DNA of 64,000 nucleotides, taken from Avibacterium volantium. Its GTDB lineage: Bacteria; Pseudomonadota; Gammaproteobacteria; Enterobacterales; Pasteurellaceae. Numbering within the stretch: the stretch's first letter is position 1; every line of letters starts with the position of its first letter. Location of the stretch: assembly GCF_900635775.1 (NCBI RefSeq), contig NZ_LR134167.1, positions 963,001 to 1,027,000 of the forward strand, given 5' to 3'. This document shows positions 24,212 to 31,725 of the stretch, piece after piece. The position numbers were made by a program, and so were the translations under genes. The notes below the pieces were generated by a model that saw only the letters and a list, made by a program, of their open reading frames with translations, ran no database searches and had not been told where the DNA came from.

Positions 24212-25642
24212 ATGAAAGAATTTCAAAAACGAGTAAGACAAACCGTACCAGAAATGCGTCGTGTGAAACAAATTCATTTTGTCGGCATTGGTGGTGCGGG
24301 AATGGGCGGTATCGCGGAAGTTTTGTTGAATGAAGGTTACCAAGTAACGGGATCGGATATTGCGGAAAATGCAGTAACGCAACGCTTAAGTGCGTTAGGC
24401 GCAAAAATTTATTTTTCTCATCAAGCAGCCAATGTTGATGGCGCGAGTGTGGTGGTGGTATCCAGCGCCATTAAAGATGATAACGTAGAAGTGGTGGAAG
24501 CGCACAATAACCGTATTCCTGTGATTCAACGCGCGCAAATGTTAGCGGAAATTATGCGTTTCCGTCACGGCATTGCCATTGCGGGGACACACGGTAAAAC
24601 CACCACAACCGCAATGATCTCAATGATTTATGCGCAAGCAGGGCTTGATCCAACGTTCGTAAATGGCGGATTGGTGAAATCAGCTGGCACAAATGCCCAT
24701 TTAGGCGCAAGCCGTTATTTAATCGCTGAAGCGGACGAAAGCGATGCGTCTTTTTTACACTTACAGCCAATGGTTTCGGTGGTAACCAATATTGAGCCTG
24801 ATCATATGGAAACCTATCACGGTGATTTTGAAGAAATGAAACAAACCTATGTGAATTTCTTACATAATTTACCGTTTTATGGCTTAGCGGTAATGTGTGC
24901 AGATGATCCTGTGCTACTTGAGTTGATTCCAAAAGTTGGACGTCAAGTAATCACTTATGGCTTTAGCGAAAATGCCGATTATCGCATTGAAGATTATCAG
25001 CAAACGGGCTTTCAAGGGCATTACACCGTGGTTACCCCACAAGGTGAACGCGTCAATGTATTGCTTAACGTACCGGGTAAACATAATGCGCTAAATGCAA
25101 CCGCAGCTTTCGCCGTGGCAAAAGAAGAAGGCATTGGCAATGAAGCTATTTTAGCCGCCTTAGCAGATTTCCAAGGGGCAGGACGCCGTTTTGATCAGCT
25201 TGGTCAGTTTATTCGTCCAAACGGAAAAGTGATGTTAGTGGACGATTATGGGCATCACCCAACAGAAGTGGGGGTAACCATTGAAGCAGCGAAAAAAGGC
25301 TGGGAAAACAAACGAATTGTGATGATTTTCCAACCGCACCGTTATTCGCGTACCCGTGATTTGTTTGATGATTTCGTGCAAGTGCTATCCCAAGTTGATG
25401 TGCTATTAATGCTTGATGTGTATGCAGCAGGCGAAGCACCAATCGCAGGGGCGGATAGCCGTTCGTTATGCCGTTCTATTCGTAATTTAGGCAAAGTTGA
25501 TCCGATTTTTGTAGCTGAGCAAGAAACGCTTGCGGAAATTTTGGATCAGGTTATTCAAGACGGTGATTTAATTTTGGCGCAAGGCGCTGGCAATGTGAGT
25601 AAACTATCCCGTCAATTAGCCGATAAGTGGACAGAAAATTAA
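24212..25642 (+). CDS. murC: UDP-MurNAc:L-alanine ligase MurC
   Basis: A 476-residue Mur ligase making the first peptide addition to UDP-MurNAc. Visible are the N-terminal [17 protein letters not shown], the ATP site [15 protein letters not shown] near 122, [16 protein letters not shown], and [10 protein letters not shown] near 347. Its last codons overlap possible upstream starts of ddlB but not the start chosen here. Confidence 0.96.
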
Positions 25643-25653
25643 TTGGAAGTAGT

Positions 25654-26580
25654 ATGAAAAAAACATTAAAACAAGAAAAAATTGCCGTGTTACTTGGTGG
25701 AACTTCTGCCGAGCGTGAGGTTTCGCTTAATTCAGGCGAAGCCGTGCTTAATGCGTTAAAAAGCCTTGGCTATGACGCGCACCCGATTGATCCGAAAACC
25801 TTTCCTGTGGCGGAATTAAAACAACAGGGCTTTGATCGTGTATTCAATATTTTGCACGGACGTGGTGGGGAAGACGGCACAATGCAAGGCTTGCTTGAGC
25901 AAATTGGTATTCCTTACACAGGCTGTGGGGTAATGGCATCTGCCTTAACAATGGATAAAATGCGGACTAAAATGTTGTGGAAAGCCTTTGGCTTACCAGT
26001 GGCGAATATGGAAATCGTAACAAAATCAACAGTATCCGAACTAAACCCTGCCGCAGTTGTCGAAAAATTAGGTCTGCCGTTGATGGTAAAACCTTCGTTG
26101 GAGGGGTCAAGTGTGGGGCTAAGAAAAGTCAATCAACTTGATGAATTACAAAGTGCGGTGGAATTTGCCTTAGGTTTTGACGATACCATTTTGATTGAAG
26201 AATGGCTTGCCGGTGATGAATTTACCCTGCCAGTTTTAGACAATGAAGTGTTGCCAGCGATCAAAATCGTGCCTGAAGGTGAGTTTTATGATTATGAAGC
26301 GAAATATGTTTCCGATAATACGCAATATTTTTGTCCAGCAGGTTTAACTGAGGAACGTGAGCAAGAATTGCGTCAATTAGTGAAGCGCGCTTATGATGCG
26401 GTAGGTTGTCGTGGTTGGAGTCGTATTGATGTGATGATGGACGCTGAAGGGCAATTCCGCTTAGTGGAAGTGAACACTAACCCAGGAATGACCAGCCATA
26501 GTTTATTCCCGAAATCAGCGGCAACCGTGGGCTATTCTTTCGAACAGCTTGTAGAGAAAATTTTGGAGCTTAGTGTTTAA
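25654..26580 (+). CDS. ddlB: D-alanine:D-alanine ligase DdlB
   Basis: A 308-residue ATP-grasp enzyme that joins two D-alanines for Mur[18 protein letters not shown] is the N-terminal signature; [28 protein letters not shown] and [15 protein letters not shown] are the ATP-grasp and metal motifs. A GTG at 25627 would add nine residues and overlap murC; the ATG at 25654, after GGAAG, fits the E. coli length of 306. Its stop overlaps the ftsQ start (TAATG). Confidence 0.95.
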
Positions 26581-27350
26581 TGAAGTTATGGCGACATAAA
26601 GCGACACAAAGCATACGCACTGGAGAGCCAAGATCTCGCTTTTTTATGCAGGTCAAGCCATTAATTGTGCTATTATGTCTAGGGTTAATGTTTTATGTTT
26701 ACTCAAATTGGCAAAATTGGCTCGAAAAACTAGATGATCGCCCTATTAGTGCCTTTAATCTCGTAGGAACACCGGCATTCACCACTGATGAAGATGTGCG
26801 TGATATGCTGATAAAAATGGGCGATCTTAAAGGTTTCTTTGGGCAAGATGTGAGTTTAGTGCGTGAGCAAATCCAAAAAATGCCTTGGGTTAAACAAGCC
26901 GTAGTGAGAAAAATCTGGCCTGACCGACTAAACATTTTGGTCAGTGAATATACGCCTGTCGCCGTTTGGAACGATAATGAATTTTTATCTAGCGATGGCG
27001 TGGTATTCAAATTGCCAGTGGATAAATTACAGGATAAAAATTTACCGCACTTAGCAGGGCCGGATTATCAGAGTTTAGTGGTGCTAGATGCGTGGAAAAA
27101 GATTTATCAAGATCTAAAAACAAAAGGACTAACATTAAAATCCGTTGCCATTGATGATCGAGAGGCTTGGCAATTAGAACTTGATAATGGCGTATTATTA
27201 AAATTGGGACGGGGAGAATGGAAAAGCAAACTCGATCGTTTTGCCACCATTTATCCGCAAATTGAAGTTCCAGAAAATAAAAAGTTATCCTATGTCGATC
27301 TCCGCTATAAAGTAGGGGCTGCCGTAGGAATGGTTGATATAAACGAATAA
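26580..27350 (+). CDS. ftsQ: Cell division protein FtsQ
   Basis: A 256-residue bitopic inner-membrane divisome protein. It has a cytoplasmic N-terminus, one membrane segment near residues 24-42 (PLIVLLCLGLMFYVYSNW), then the periplasmic POTRA domain (FNLVGTPAFTTDEDVRDML) and the beta domain (MPWVKQAVVRKIWPDRLNI and onward). It starts inside the ddlB stop codon region, which couples their translation. Confidence 0.95.
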   Translation: MKLWRHKATQSIRTGEPRSRFFMQVKPLIVLLCLGLMFYVYSNWQNWLEKLDDRPISAFNLVGTPAFTTDEDVRDMLIKMGDLKGFFGQDVSLVREQIQKMPWVKQAVVRKIWPDRLNILVSEYTPVAVWNDNEFLSSDGVVFKLPVDKLQDKNLPHLAGPDYQSLVVLDAWKKIYQDLKTKGLTLKSVAIDDREAWQLELDNGVLLKLGRGEWKSKLDRFATIYPQIEVPENKKLSYVDLRYKVGAAVGMVDINE

Positions 27351-27374
27351 TTTTACCTGATAAGAAGTTAGAAA

Positions 27375-28652
27375 ATGGCAAAGATTGTGGAATCAAAAAC
27401 GATTGTTGGATTGGAAGTCGGTACTTCTAAAGTCGTCGCTGTTGTGGGTGAAGTGTTGCCAGACGGCGTAGTGAATATCTTAGGCGTGGGAAGCTGCCCT
27501 TCCAAGGGCATTGATAAAGGTAGCATTACTGACCTAAACGCAGTGGTTACCTCAATTCAACGAGCAATCGAGGCGGCGGAATCTGTGGCAGATTGCCAAA
27601 TTATAAGCGTTACCTTAGCGATTACGGGCGATCACATTCAAAGCTTAAATGAAAGCGGTTTTGTGCCGATTGCTGAAGGCGAAGTTACGCAAGAGGAAAT
27701 TGATTCCGCAATGCACACAGCCAGCTCCGTGAGAATGGGCGAAGGGCTTTCTTTATTGCATATTATTCCGCAAGAATATGCCGTAGATAAACAGGTAAAT
27801 ATTAAAGATCCTCTAGGCTTACAGGGCGTTCGTTTAAAAGCGCAAGCGCATTTGATCGCCTGCCATCAGGATTGGCAAAACAACCTTAAAAAAGCGGTAG
27901 AACGCTGTAAATTAAAAGTAGATAAAATCGTTTATTCGGGCGTGGCATCAGGTTGCTCCGTGCTAACGGAAGATGAAAAAGATCTTGGCGTGTGCTTAAT
28001 TGATTTCGGCGCTGGCACAATGGACATTGTGGTTTACACCAACGGCGCATTGCGTTTTAGTAAAGTAATTCCTTATGCAGGAAATCGTGTTACCGATGAC
28101 ATCGCCTATGCCTGTGAAACCTCAAGAACAGAAGCTGAACGCATTAAAGTTAATTACAGCAGTGCGTGGAATCCGCCATCTTCACACCCAGAAAAACGAA
28201 TTGAAGTGGCAGGCATCGGAGGACGTGCGCCGCGTGTGCTAACAAAAGAACAATTATCAGTTGCGACTTCTGCGCGTTATGAAGAATTATTAGGCTTAGT
28301 TCGCCAAGAATTAAACCAATTACAGTATGAGCTTGAAAGCAAACAAATGAAGTTTGAATTAATCGCAGGTATTGTAATTACCGGTGGTGGCGCACAGATT
28401 GAAGACCTAAAACAATGTGCAACGAAAGTGTTTGGAATGCAAGTGCGTATCGGTAGCCCATTAAATATTACCGGCTTAACCGATTATGTTAATAAACCGC
28501 AATATTCTACCGTTGTGGGGTTATTACAGTATAACCATAATGATGAAGATGAAAGCCCAATTAACGAACAATATGGCTCAGGAGAGAGTTTCTTAGGGGC
28601 ATTCTGGTCAGGATTGAAAAAAGTTGTAAATAAAGTGCGGTCAGAATTTTAA
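27375..28652 (+). CDS. ftsA: Cell division protein FtsA
   Basis: A 425-residue actin-like ATPase that tethers FtsZ filaments to the membrane. [16 protein letters not shown] is the phosphate-1 loop, [19 protein letters not shown] the phosphate-2 loop, and [14 protein letters not shown] the adenosine motif. A C-terminal amphipathic helix ([16 protein letters not shown]) provides the membrane anchor. The last codons are encoded by an uptake signal that is part of a 22-bp repeat found again 700 bp downstream. Confidence 0.96.
28629..28650 (+). repeat. 22-bp direct repeat, copy 1 (end of ftsA)
   Basis: Begins AATAAAGTGCGGTCAGAA and ends TTTT. It includes an uptake signal and the last codons of ftsA. 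An identical 22-mer lies at 29351-29372, so the two copies bracket the ftsZ-like gene. Confidence 0.9.
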
Positions 28653-28680
28653 CCACTTTTATTTAAAATGGGAGAAAAAA

Positions 28681-29283
28681 ATGAATGATACATTATTGAT
28701 CAGCGTGCTTGGTATCGGAACTTATGGTACAAAAGCACTCCATATGATTATGGATAAAATGCAGAAAAATGATCAAGACGATATGTTCATTACCGCACCA
28801 AATAGCAATGAATTTGCGTTTTATGCCATAGATAACGATAAAGACGTGCTTAATTCAAGTAATGCGCAAGATAGCTTGTTGCTCAGTGATGAATTAAATC
28901 AAGAATCTTTGGCGGATCAACAAGTAGAAGAAAAATTATGCCAAATGGTGGGCGATAGCGATTTTGTTATTTTGGTTTCAGCCGTTGGTGGTAATACATC
29001 GTCAATGGTGATTGCAGCGGTTGCAGAGAGACTTAACGCAATGAAAATCCCAATGGCGGCGGTAGTCGTGAAACCGTTTGATTTTGAAGGGCAAAAACGC
29101 ATCAATAATGCAGAGATTGCGATCAGCAAATTGGAAAAATTGGTTACAACCCTTAAAGTGTTAAATAATAACGAAGTGATCGCAAAAACTGATAATCAAC
29201 CTTCAAAACAACTGTTTGCCCAAGCAGATAGTGAATTGGTTGAGTTTGTATTAAGTTTTAGTGAAAAACATTTTATTGCTTAA
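28681..29283 (+). CDS. Divergent FtsZ N-terminal-domain paralogue between ftsA and ftsZ
   Basis: An intact 200-codon gene with its own ribosome site (GGGAG, about 6 bases upstream). It aligns with the first half of the adjacent FtsZ: LLISVLGIGTYGTKAL (residues 5-20) against the T1 loop; MIMDKMQKND...FAFYAIDNDKDVL (23-57) against the same region, including the extra segment seen in this FtsZ; SAVGGNTSSM (100-109) against GGGTGTG; and VVVKPFDFEGQKR (128-140) against [13 protein letters not shown]. The T3 glycine loop is absent, the T4 loop keeps only two glycines, and the protein ends before the NxDxxD T7 loop needed for GTP hydrolysis. GTPase activity is therefore unlikely. It could cap or titrate FtsZ or bind FtsA, or be a decaying duplicate; the open frame and good ribosome site favour a function. 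Confidence 0.85.
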   Translation: MNDTLLISVLGIGTYGTKALHMIMDKMQKNDQDDMFITAPNSNEFAFYAIDNDKDVLNSSNAQDSLLLSDELNQESLADQQVEEKLCQMVGDSDFVILVSAVGGNTSSMVIAAVAERLNAMKIPMAAVVVKPFDFEGQKRINNAEIAISKLEKLVTTLKVLNNNEVIAKTDNQPSKQLFAQADSELVEFVLSFSEKHFIA

Positions 29284-29350
29284 AAATAAAAGTGCGGTGG
29301 AAAATTTACGATTTTTTCGACTTCTTTTATTATTTTTGGGAATTTTTAGC

Positions 29351-29372
29351 AATAAAGTGCGGTCAGAATTTT
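29351..29372 (+). repeat. 22-bp direct repeat, copy 2 (upstream of ftsZ)
   Basis: Identical to 28629-28650. It lies in the 174-base gap between the ftsZ-like gene and ftsZ, which also holds a second uptake signal near 29290. Part of the identity follows from the extended uptake consensus (core plus AT-rich flank), but not the whole 22 bases. Confidence 0.9.
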
Positions 29373-29457
29373 GAGAATTTTTATTTTTCATCTACAATAA
29401 GAGCAATTTAAGTTTTAATTTTGTGCCAGCAAATCTTGGCATTAACGGAGAATAACT

Positions 29458-30765
29458 ATGTTTGAACCAGTGGATTATGATCTTGGTGATATGAACGGCG
29501 CACTGATTAAAGTCGTTGGTGTTGGCGGTGGTGGCGGTAACGCCGTAAACCATATGGTTGCTAATATGATTAAAAATGATATTGGCGGCACATTAGTGGG
29601 GACTGATGAATTAGCCTTCCCAACAACAAATGACGAACACGATAGAATTATTTTCTATGCCGTAAACACAGATGCGCAAGCATTGCGTAAAAGCAATGTG
29701 CAACAAACTGTTCAAATCGGTGGTTCAACAACCAAAGGACTTGGTGCGGGCGCGAACCCAAATGTGGGGCGTAAAGCCGCAGAAGATGATCAAGATGCTA
29801 TTCGTGCAATGCTTGAAGGGGCTGATATGGTGTTTATCGCCGCAGGTATGGGCGGTGGTACAGGAACTGGTGCAGCACCAATCGTTGCACAAATTGCAAA
29901 AGAATTAGGTATTTTGACTGTTGCCGTAGTAACCAAGCCTTTCTCATTTGAAGGTAGAAAGCGTATGCAATTCGCTGAAATGGGAATTAAAGAGCTTTCT
30001 AAACATGTTGATTCTTTGATCATCATTCCAAATGAGAAGTTATTAAAAGTATTAGGTAAAAACATCAGCTTAGTGAATGCTTTTGCTGCTGCAAATGATA
30101 TTCTCCGTAATGCAGTAACAGGTATTTCCGATATGATTACTTCTCCGGGTCTAATCAACGTGGACTTTGCAGACGTTCGTACCGTAATGTCTGAAATGGG
30201 GCGTGCAATGATGGGATCGGGCGTTGTTCAAGGTGAAGCTGGTGATGGACGAGCAGAGAAAGCGGCACAAGAAGCGGTTGCTAGCCCATTATTGGAAGAT
30301 GTGGATTTAGCTGGCGCAAGAGGGGTGCTTGTTAATGTTACCGCAGGTTTTGATCTAACTTTAGACGAATTTACCGTGGTGGGCGATACAATCAAAGCCT
30401 TTGCTTCAGAAGAAGCTACTGTTGTAGTGGGAACAACCTTAGTGCCAGATATGACAGACGAATTGCGCGTAACGATTGTTGCAACGGGTATTGGTGATAT
30501 TGATGAGCCAGATATTCAAATTGCACCGCGTACCGCACCATTAGGTCAGCCGATGCAAAAAGCAAATCCAGAACCATTTGGGCAACAGCAGGCAACAGGT
30601 TATCAGCCACATAATCCACAACAAGGACAAATGCCAAATCGCCCTGCGGATTTAACGAATAGAAATATTTTAGATACGCCAATTACTGATCGCTTAAATT
30701 CTCTTAAAAGAGAAGACGGTTTAGTTAACGCGAACAGTTTTATGCGTAAACCAGAAGATAAATAA
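29458..30765 (+). CDS. ftsZ: Cell division GTPase FtsZ
   Basis: The 435-residue tubulin-like GTPase that forms the Z ring. All motifs are present: [11 protein letters not shown] (20-30), the T3 loop [12 protein letters not shown] (94-105), GGGTGTG (132-138), and the catalytic T7 loop NVDFADV (234-240). Relative to E. coli it carries an insertion of roughly 24 residues at about 38-64, which H. influenzae FtsZ also has. The C-terminal linker is Gln/Pro-rich. The end, [10 protein letters not shown], deviates from the DIPxFLR-type peptide that binds FtsA and ZipA in E. coli. It has its own ribosome site (GGAG) upstream. Confidence 0.97.
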
Positions 30766-30807
30766 AGGAATAAATCTTATTGTTATACAATGGATTTAGA
30801 AAACATT

Positions 30808-31725
30808 ATGATTAAACAAAGAACCTTAAAACAGAGTATTAAAGTAACAGGTGTAGGGCTACATAGTGGCAACAAAGTAACCCTAACCTTACGCCCAGCA
30901 ATGGCAAATACTGGAGTGATTTACTGCCGTACGGATTTAAACCCACCGGTAACGTTCCCTGCCAACGCAAATGCCGTGCGTGATACAATGCTTTGTACTT
31001 GTTTGATAAATGAAGAAGGCATTCGTATTTCGACTGTAGAGCATTTGAATGCTGCGCTTGCAGGCTTAGGCATTGATAATGTGATTATTGAAGTGGACGC
31101 GCCAGAAATTCCAATTATGGACGGCAGTGCAAGCCCATTCATTTATCTTTTATTAGATGCAGGCATTGAAGAACAAAATGCAGCGAAAAAATTTATTCGC
31201 GTGAAAAAGCCAATTCGTGTGGAAGACGGTGATAAATGGGCAGAATTTAAACCTTACAATGGTTTCCGTTTAGATTTCACCATTGATTTCAATCACCCTG
31301 CCATTGGTAAAGATGTGCGTAATTATGTAATGGATTTCTCCGCGCAAGCGTTCGTGCAACAAATTAGCCGTGCAAGAACCTTTGGCTTTATGAAAGATAT
31401 TGAATATTTACAATCACAAGGTTTAGCGTTAGGTGGTAGCCTAGATAACGCTATTGTGCTTGATGATTATCGCATCTTAAATGAAGATGGTCTTCGTTTT
31501 AAAGATGAGCTAGTACGCCACAAAATGCTTGATGCTATTGGTGATTTATATATGTGTGGTTATAACATCATCGGTGATTTCAAAGCCTATAAATCAGGGC
31601 ACGGCTTAAATAACAAATTATTAAGAGCCTTGCTTGAAGATCAAGAGGCGTGGGAGTTTGTTACCTTTGAAGATAAACAGCAAGTGCCACAAGGTTATCT
31701 CGCGCCAAATCAAGTATTTATCTAA
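30808..31725 (+). CDS. lpxC: UDP-3-O-acyl-N-acetylglucosamine deacetylase LpxC
   Basis: A 305-residue zinc deacetylase committing UDP-GlcNAc to lipid A synthesis. It starts [20 protein letters not shown], like E. coli LpxC, so the ATG at 30808 is preferred over an in-frame ATG at 30790. Zinc and catalytic motifs are visible: [12 protein letters not shown] (His), [19 protein letters not shown] (His and Asp), and GHGLNNKLL. It is the last gene of the cluster, followed by a strong terminator. Confidence 0.96.

Follow-up and report, generated by a model that had tools for sequence, protein, structure and literature searches.

The locus between ftsA and ftsZ

We analysed a window of 64,000 nucleotides from Avibacterium volantium (contig NZ_LR134167.1, positions 963,001 to 1,027,000), in which a gene for an FtsZ-like protein is located between the cell division genes ftsA and ftsZ. 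The open reading frame (28681-29283, forward strand) starts with ATG and encodes 200 amino acids. It confirms the original prediction, made from the DNA alone, of an intact 200-codon gene with a ribosome-binding site at this position. The locus comprises the following features:

27375..28652, + strand: ftsA, the presumed transcript source for the paralogue mRNA
28629..28650, + strand: ftsA 3' end, first copy of the 22-base direct repeat AATAAAGTGCGGTCAGAATTTT
28670..28674, + strand: GGGAG, likely ribosome-binding site of the paralogue judged by sequence, six bases before the ATG
28681..29283, + strand: FtsZ N-terminal-domain paralogue of 200 amino acids, identified from profiles, alignments, predicted fold and the ratio of nonsynonymous to synonymous substitution rates (dN/dS)
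29351..29374, + strand: relic of an ancestral ftsA 3' end (NKVRSEF and the stop codon TGA), the first 22 bases being the second repeat copy
29371..29398, + strand: likely ftsZ promoter, TTGAGA-16-TACAAT, with the -35 element overlapping the relic stop codon
29458..30765, + strand: canonical ftsZ (TIGR00065, 448.8 bits, above the cut-off)

A profile search, which had been proposed as a check, matched the protein to the Pfam family Tubulin, PF00091, with E=1.6e-18 and 68.1 bits (cut-off 33); together with the predicted structure and a structural alignment, this upholds the FtsZ fold claimed by the original prediction. Based on the score above the gathering threshold and the predicted fold of an FtsZ N-terminal domain, we assign the paralogue to the Tubulin/FtsZ GTPase-domain superfamily. 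Against the NCBIfam model TIGR00065 for ftsZ it reaches 76.5 bits, far under the equivalog cut-off of 295.2, and is therefore FtsZ-like but not FtsZ. The identity with the window's own FtsZ is 28% over 166 columns, and the profile search found no match to PF12327. With this TIGR00065 score and without the T7 aspartates, the C-terminal domain and a glycine-rich T4 loop, the paralogue would not be classed as FtsZ proper.

Motifs were compared across three paralogue lineages (G000, G005 and G001). Those quoted in the original prediction, including T4 GGNTSSM and T5 KPFxFEGxK, were found. In common with canonical FtsZ (TIGR00065; PF00091 and PF12327), the paralogue has the N-terminal Rossmann domain, T5, the T6 asparagine, the H7 phenylalanine and the subgroup-specific H1-S2 extension. 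This extra segment of Pasteurellaceae FtsZ was predicted to be kept and is present, but in a shortened form. Unlike canonical FtsZ, the paralogue has no T3 loop, altered T1 and T4 loops, no T7 aspartates and neither C-terminal domain nor tail. T1 changed from GGGGGN to G[TS]YG[TA]K (GTYGTK in the window protein), and T4 from GGGTGTG to GGNTSSM, GGNTSSM and GGQTAST in the three lineages, the window protein having GGNTSSM. The predicted degradation of the T3 and T4 glycine loops thus applies to T4, while T3 is deleted altogether. As predicted for T7, the aligned chain stops at the start of this loop: only residues 195-200 follow H7, and the final residues, SEKHFIA, contain no aspartate. In the structural alignment the last residue lies opposite residue 216 of S. 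aureus FtsZ, with some uncertainty in the exact end. The loss of the parts required for hydrolysis is borne out by the alignment of all three lineages.

Of the FtsZ residues that an excerpt of PMC8936486 describes as key to association or hydrolysis (D46, Q48, R143, N208, D210 and D213), the window protein retains D46 and R143, has Asp in place of Q48 and lacks those on the T7 side, while the A. avium type keeps Q48 and has Ser for R143. Across the three lineages 116 of the 200 residues are invariant, 43 of them matching the FtsZ residue. The runs MIMDKMQKN (3/9 as in FtsZ) and QDSLLLSD (1/8) are mostly the paralogue's own. In FVLSFSEKHF (residues 189-198) nine of ten residues are invariant and one, V190, is common to FtsZ, with F189 and L191 standing for FtsZ Ala and Thr, respectively.

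Origin, distribution and selection

The 24 bases at 29351-29374, before ftsZ, encode the peptide found at the FtsA end, NKVRSEF, and a stop codon. The same bases form the ftsA end in G064, G085 and G040, and with one base different in G004; in these four genomes they lead directly into the ftsZ leader. The two repeat copies match at 22/22 positions. The repeat includes the uptake signal AAGTGCGGT; an explanation of the repeat as a mere uptake signal was rejected, as no other perfect pair exists among all 51 such signals in the window, and the best of the other 49 shares 17/22. The ftsZ promoter candidate is the top promoter-like site within 27300-29520, with a score of 10/12 that is not significant alone (6 sites vs 5.2 in shuffles). 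This stretch is kept before ftsZ in Avibacterium genomes and many relatives, and there is no second copy before the paralogue, i.e. after the present ftsA. The ftsA-tail relic, the repeat and the promoter placement are the expected leftovers of a tandem duplication running from the ftsA tail into ftsZ and cut after H7. Alternatively, an incoming copy may have been inserted by transformation at the uptake signal.

The original prediction had also placed the origin within Pasteurellaceae, and this holds: when the extension columns are removed before tree building, the five paralogues fall, on a long branch, with 25 extension-bearing FtsZ rows against 22 without the extension (branch 98/93). Other Pasteurellaceae FtsZ-like rows were omitted from this tree, for which the program warns of long branches. 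The ftsA tree is compatible with a gain of the paralogue before or after the G004 split.

In a collection of 5.8 billion proteins we found 14 homologues at E<=0.001, and all seven with a named organism are from Avibacterium. Among 140 Pasteurellaceae genomes, a profile finds the paralogue in five of seven Avibacterium genomes (G000, G001, G002, G003 and G005) with at least 167 bits per piece, the next match being an FtsZ-sized frame at 93.8 bits. Identity of ftsA in the six other Avibacterium genomes is 88-99.8%. A survey of 47 genomes, covering 40 of 43 Pasteurellaceae genera, gave an ftsA-ftsZ gap of 797-808 bases in the five carriers and 30-283 bases in the other 42; only the carriers have space for such a gene. 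Phage or plasmid carriage was rejected after tblastn against 50,697 phage records and 72,556 plasmid records gave no match.

Relatives 69-76% identical to the paralogue also have a length of 200 amino acids, and the A. gallinarum entry P0005 is intact. The G003 copy contains a one-base frameshift, which may not be a single-assembly error because the 112-residue fragment entry P0014 occurs on three contigs, the longest of 2.38 Mb. The 200-base spacer of G006 is collinear with the G001 gene over the latter's 3' part, with a score of 56; none of 300 shuffles reaches this score (largest 53) and the reverse complement gives 30, while 3/300 and 9/300 shuffles reach the spacer's score against G000 and G005, respectively. 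G004 has no trace of the paralogue.

For dN/dS we used the NG86 method on five genome pairs, with ftsZ represented by its first 320 aligned codons. The ftsQ and murC genes of G002 end early in the assembly, and the G002 values of these two genes were excluded as controls. The paralogue gave 0.18-0.21 at dS 0.1-0.8 and 0.13-0.17 at higher dS, compared with 0.02-0.05 for ftsA in the same pairs; it is therefore constrained, though less than ftsA. The ftsZ values were 0.16-0.18 for the two pairs that include G001, whose ftsZ allele is divergent, and 0.01-0.04 for the other three. The dN/dS check suggested in the original prediction thus points to purifying selection (0.13-0.21) rather than neutral decay. 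The expected persistence in relatives stands in part: the gene is selected, but it occurs in Avibacterium only and is frameshifted, decayed or absent in three of seven genomes there. A pseudogene as the leading explanation was rejected by dN/dS with neighbour-gene controls and by the chance of frame retention. The gene is a real, selected FtsZ paralogue that is GTPase-dead as judged by its sequence.

Several dS values differ between neighbouring genes. At 24212-31725 of the window, ftsQ, ftsA and ftsZ show dS >1 against G001 and G004 while lpxC has dS ~0.2; murC and ddl, at dS ~0.3 against G001, are also well below ftsQ, ftsA and ftsZ. Judged by these values, 24212-31725 is a mosaic. The ftsZ alleles of G001 and G006 (L049, L048) are nearly identical (dS 0.046), although the two genomes differ at dS 0.97 in ftsA and 0.56 in lpxC, and their identity with the window FtsZ is only 65%; within Avibacterium, recombination appears to move ftsZ between genomes.

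Other FtsZ-like proteins in Pasteurellaceae

Outside the division cluster, FtsZ-like proteins were found in G066 and G021 (179 residues each, 44% identical), G049 (196 residues), G115 (296 residues) and G086 (294 residues), and as two genes in tandem in G013 and G011, a pair that is interrupted in G007. This list from the 140 genomes is a lower bound, and some double matches may be split FtsZ hits. In G049 (L044 4406-6194) and G115 (L045 4410-6551) the gene directly adjoins a PDDEXK_4 nuclease-like gene, listed by PADLOC as phage-defence candidate PDC-S26. PDDEXK_4 has 25 matches in 22 of the 140 genomes; the neighbourhoods read were those in G049 and G115. In G021 (L114 2190-6530) and G066 (L043 6600-11953) the 179-residue protein is accompanied by a HEPN-like protein, 60% identical between the two loci, which it follows directly in G021 and with one gene between in G066. 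The HEPN label is weak, with a Pfam E of 0.0047 below the cut-off for one protein and none for the other; one of them matches PADLOC DzbB at 2.7e-4. A WYL regulator, 71% identical and in pieces in G021, lies nearby in both, as do PDC-S30 in G066 and LeoA-like GTPases in G021. L043 has five homologues at E<=0.001. The 120 matches listed for L044 include the protein itself; identity among the rest does not exceed 46%, and many of these are named FtsZ.

L043, L044 and L114 have 179-196 residues, and L045, L113, L115 and L116 have 262-296 residues. Like the paralogue, L043 and L044 end near the H7 end by alignment, and the same is deduced for L114 from its match with L043. Both L043 and L045 lack T3. 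Their genomes encode FtsZ separately. Unlike the paralogue, the three that were aligned have no H1-S2 extension, and all lie at other loci. A tree joins some of them to the window gene, but with branches of ~5 to 10 changes per column it is unusable, and common ancestry was not adopted as a reading.

At L115 5446-7142, L116 4953-6613 and L046 4761-6325, two divergent FtsZ-like genes lie in tandem; in L115 one matches the N-terminal and the other the C-terminal FtsZ domain, and the pairs might be two halves of one FtsZ. They adjoin a selD-like gene, and in L115 and L116 also a PP2C-like gene. L113 6143-7027 encodes a 294-residue FtsZ-like protein with a Tubulin match just below the cut-off, located between a 1298-residue gene and another that we take, from sequence, to be purL-like and hemB-like, respectively.

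FtsZm of magnetotactic bacteria is a second, shortened FtsZ encoded in the magnetosome island, with the GTPase core kept. FtsZl1 and FtsZl2, like the paralogue, coexist with FtsZ; the cited part of PMC2875224 describes them as deeply diverged families, FtsZl1 with a coiled-coil and vWA operons and FtsZl2 with a ~300-residue C-terminal region. As far as that description goes, the paralogue belongs to neither, having 200 residues, being restricted to one genus and neighbouring ftsA and ftsZ. Paper searches on FtsZ with paralogues in Pasteurellaceae, FtsZ in Avibacterium, truncated FtsZ paralogues, FtsZ-likes in phage defence and FtsZm gave, judged by title or abstract, nothing on this gene.

Possible function of the half-subunit

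We tentatively propose, with a probability of about 40%, that the paralogue caps FtsZ filaments as an N-terminal half-subunit and acts as a built-in brake. In an Avibacterium ancestor, a duplication in place would have copied the end of ftsA along with the 5' portion of ftsZ. The second FtsZ copy would have kept no more than helix H7 and the N-terminal domain, which binds nucleotide in FtsZ. Its phosphate-binding loops, catalytic T7 loop, C-terminal domain and partner-binding tail would have disappeared, and conserved residues of its own would have been gained. The ftsQA transcript would serve as its mRNA, presumably with a low yield of protein, while ftsZ would use its own promoter; such an arrangement should keep the paralogue scarce, which suits a capper. 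MciZ, SulA and MinC, which are negative modulators, are not known to be derived from FtsZ, whereas the paralogue is itself a piece of FtsZ; its binding to FtsZ is proposed. According to passages of PMC11938149, they block the C-terminal face of FtsZ, the same growing-end face that would be the target here, and an excerpt of PMC8936486 argues that an incoming FtsZ subunit uses its N-terminal face to bind this T7-exposing end. As an N-terminal half of FtsZ, the paralogue would have the native shape for the growing-end site without being extendable: docked by its N-terminal face, it would offer no T7 face to the next subunit and no GTP hydrolysis. The analysis itself establishes the gene, its predicted fold, its truncation and distribution, the selection on it and the traces of duplication; expression, FtsZ binding and capping are inferred. 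The original prediction had alternatively suggested an FtsA-binding modulator. FtsZ binds FtsA through its C-terminal tail, which the paralogue lacks, and no FtsA-specific feature was found; we therefore abandoned this idea.

Several observations weigh against capping. Damage is greatest in the contact loops, where T3 is deleted and T1 and T4 are degraded, and each type has one of the key residues replaced (Q48 by Asp in the window type, R143 by Ser in the A. avium type); with the native face damaged, a GTP-mediated contact is doubtful. Constraint is weaker than on ftsA, with dN/dS at 2.5 to 10 times the ftsA value, and the gene has a frameshift in G003, survives as a relic in G006 and is missing from G004. 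Furthermore, a near-identical ftsZ allele occurs with the paralogue in G001 and without it in G006 (dS 0.046 in ftsZ vs 0.97 in ftsA and 0.56 in lpxC), so FtsZ works without the paralogue.

The damage to the native face would fit a partner bound via another surface, the invariant, hydrophobic H7 end (FVLSFSEKHF), which the loss of the C-terminal domain probably exposes. The partner could be FtsZ, another division protein or the paralogue itself, and the protein may then stabilise, nucleate or cross-link rather than cap. The conservation of residues 189-198, almost all distinct from FtsZ, and the substitutions F189 and L191 support this idea, but the partner is hypothetical and the exposure presumed; we consider it rather unlikely. 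A role as immune bait, in which an FtsZ mimic binds phage FtsZ inhibitors as a free decoy or as a sensor for an effector encoded elsewhere, appears less probable still. It is suggested by the short FtsZ-likes beside or near candidate effectors in G049, G115, G066 and G021, by the PDDEXK_4 gene elsewhere in three of the five carriers (G002, G003 and G005), and by CapRel-Ebc, which, according to a part of PMC13423816, senses the complex of T7 Gp0.4 with FtsZ. However, the window gene has no adjoining effector and, up to an E of 0.1, matches no PADLOC phage-defence family. PDDEXK_4 genes are absent from G000 and G001, no obvious defence gene adjoins the FtsZ-likes of G086 and G007/G011/G013, and the HEPN label is weak. 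In the same part of PMC13423816, Gp0.4 is modelled on the FtsZ C-terminal region and synergy loop, which the paralogue lacks. That the gene is a decaying duplicate without function would explain the G003, G006 and G004 states and the dN/dS above ftsA; a dN/dS well below 1 even in the closest pair, the constant length in diverged relatives and the paralogue's own conserved residues make this improbable.

More broadly, Pasteurellaceae may repeatedly make small, GTPase-dead FtsZ mimics, in Avibacterium as a filament modulator and elsewhere as the sensors by which nuclease or HEPN defence modules would detect an attack on FtsZ, a generalisation that we regard as speculative and rather doubtful. 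An FtsZ half-subunit selected beside FtsZ makes it possible to ask, in a natural setting, if a single polymerisation face is enough to regulate treadmilling. Phage defence may likewise make use of FtsZ mimicry, as the four other genomes with FtsZ-likes near candidate effectors suggest; this agrees with the report, in the cited part of PMC13423816, of a defence protein that reads a complex of FtsZ with a phage protein.
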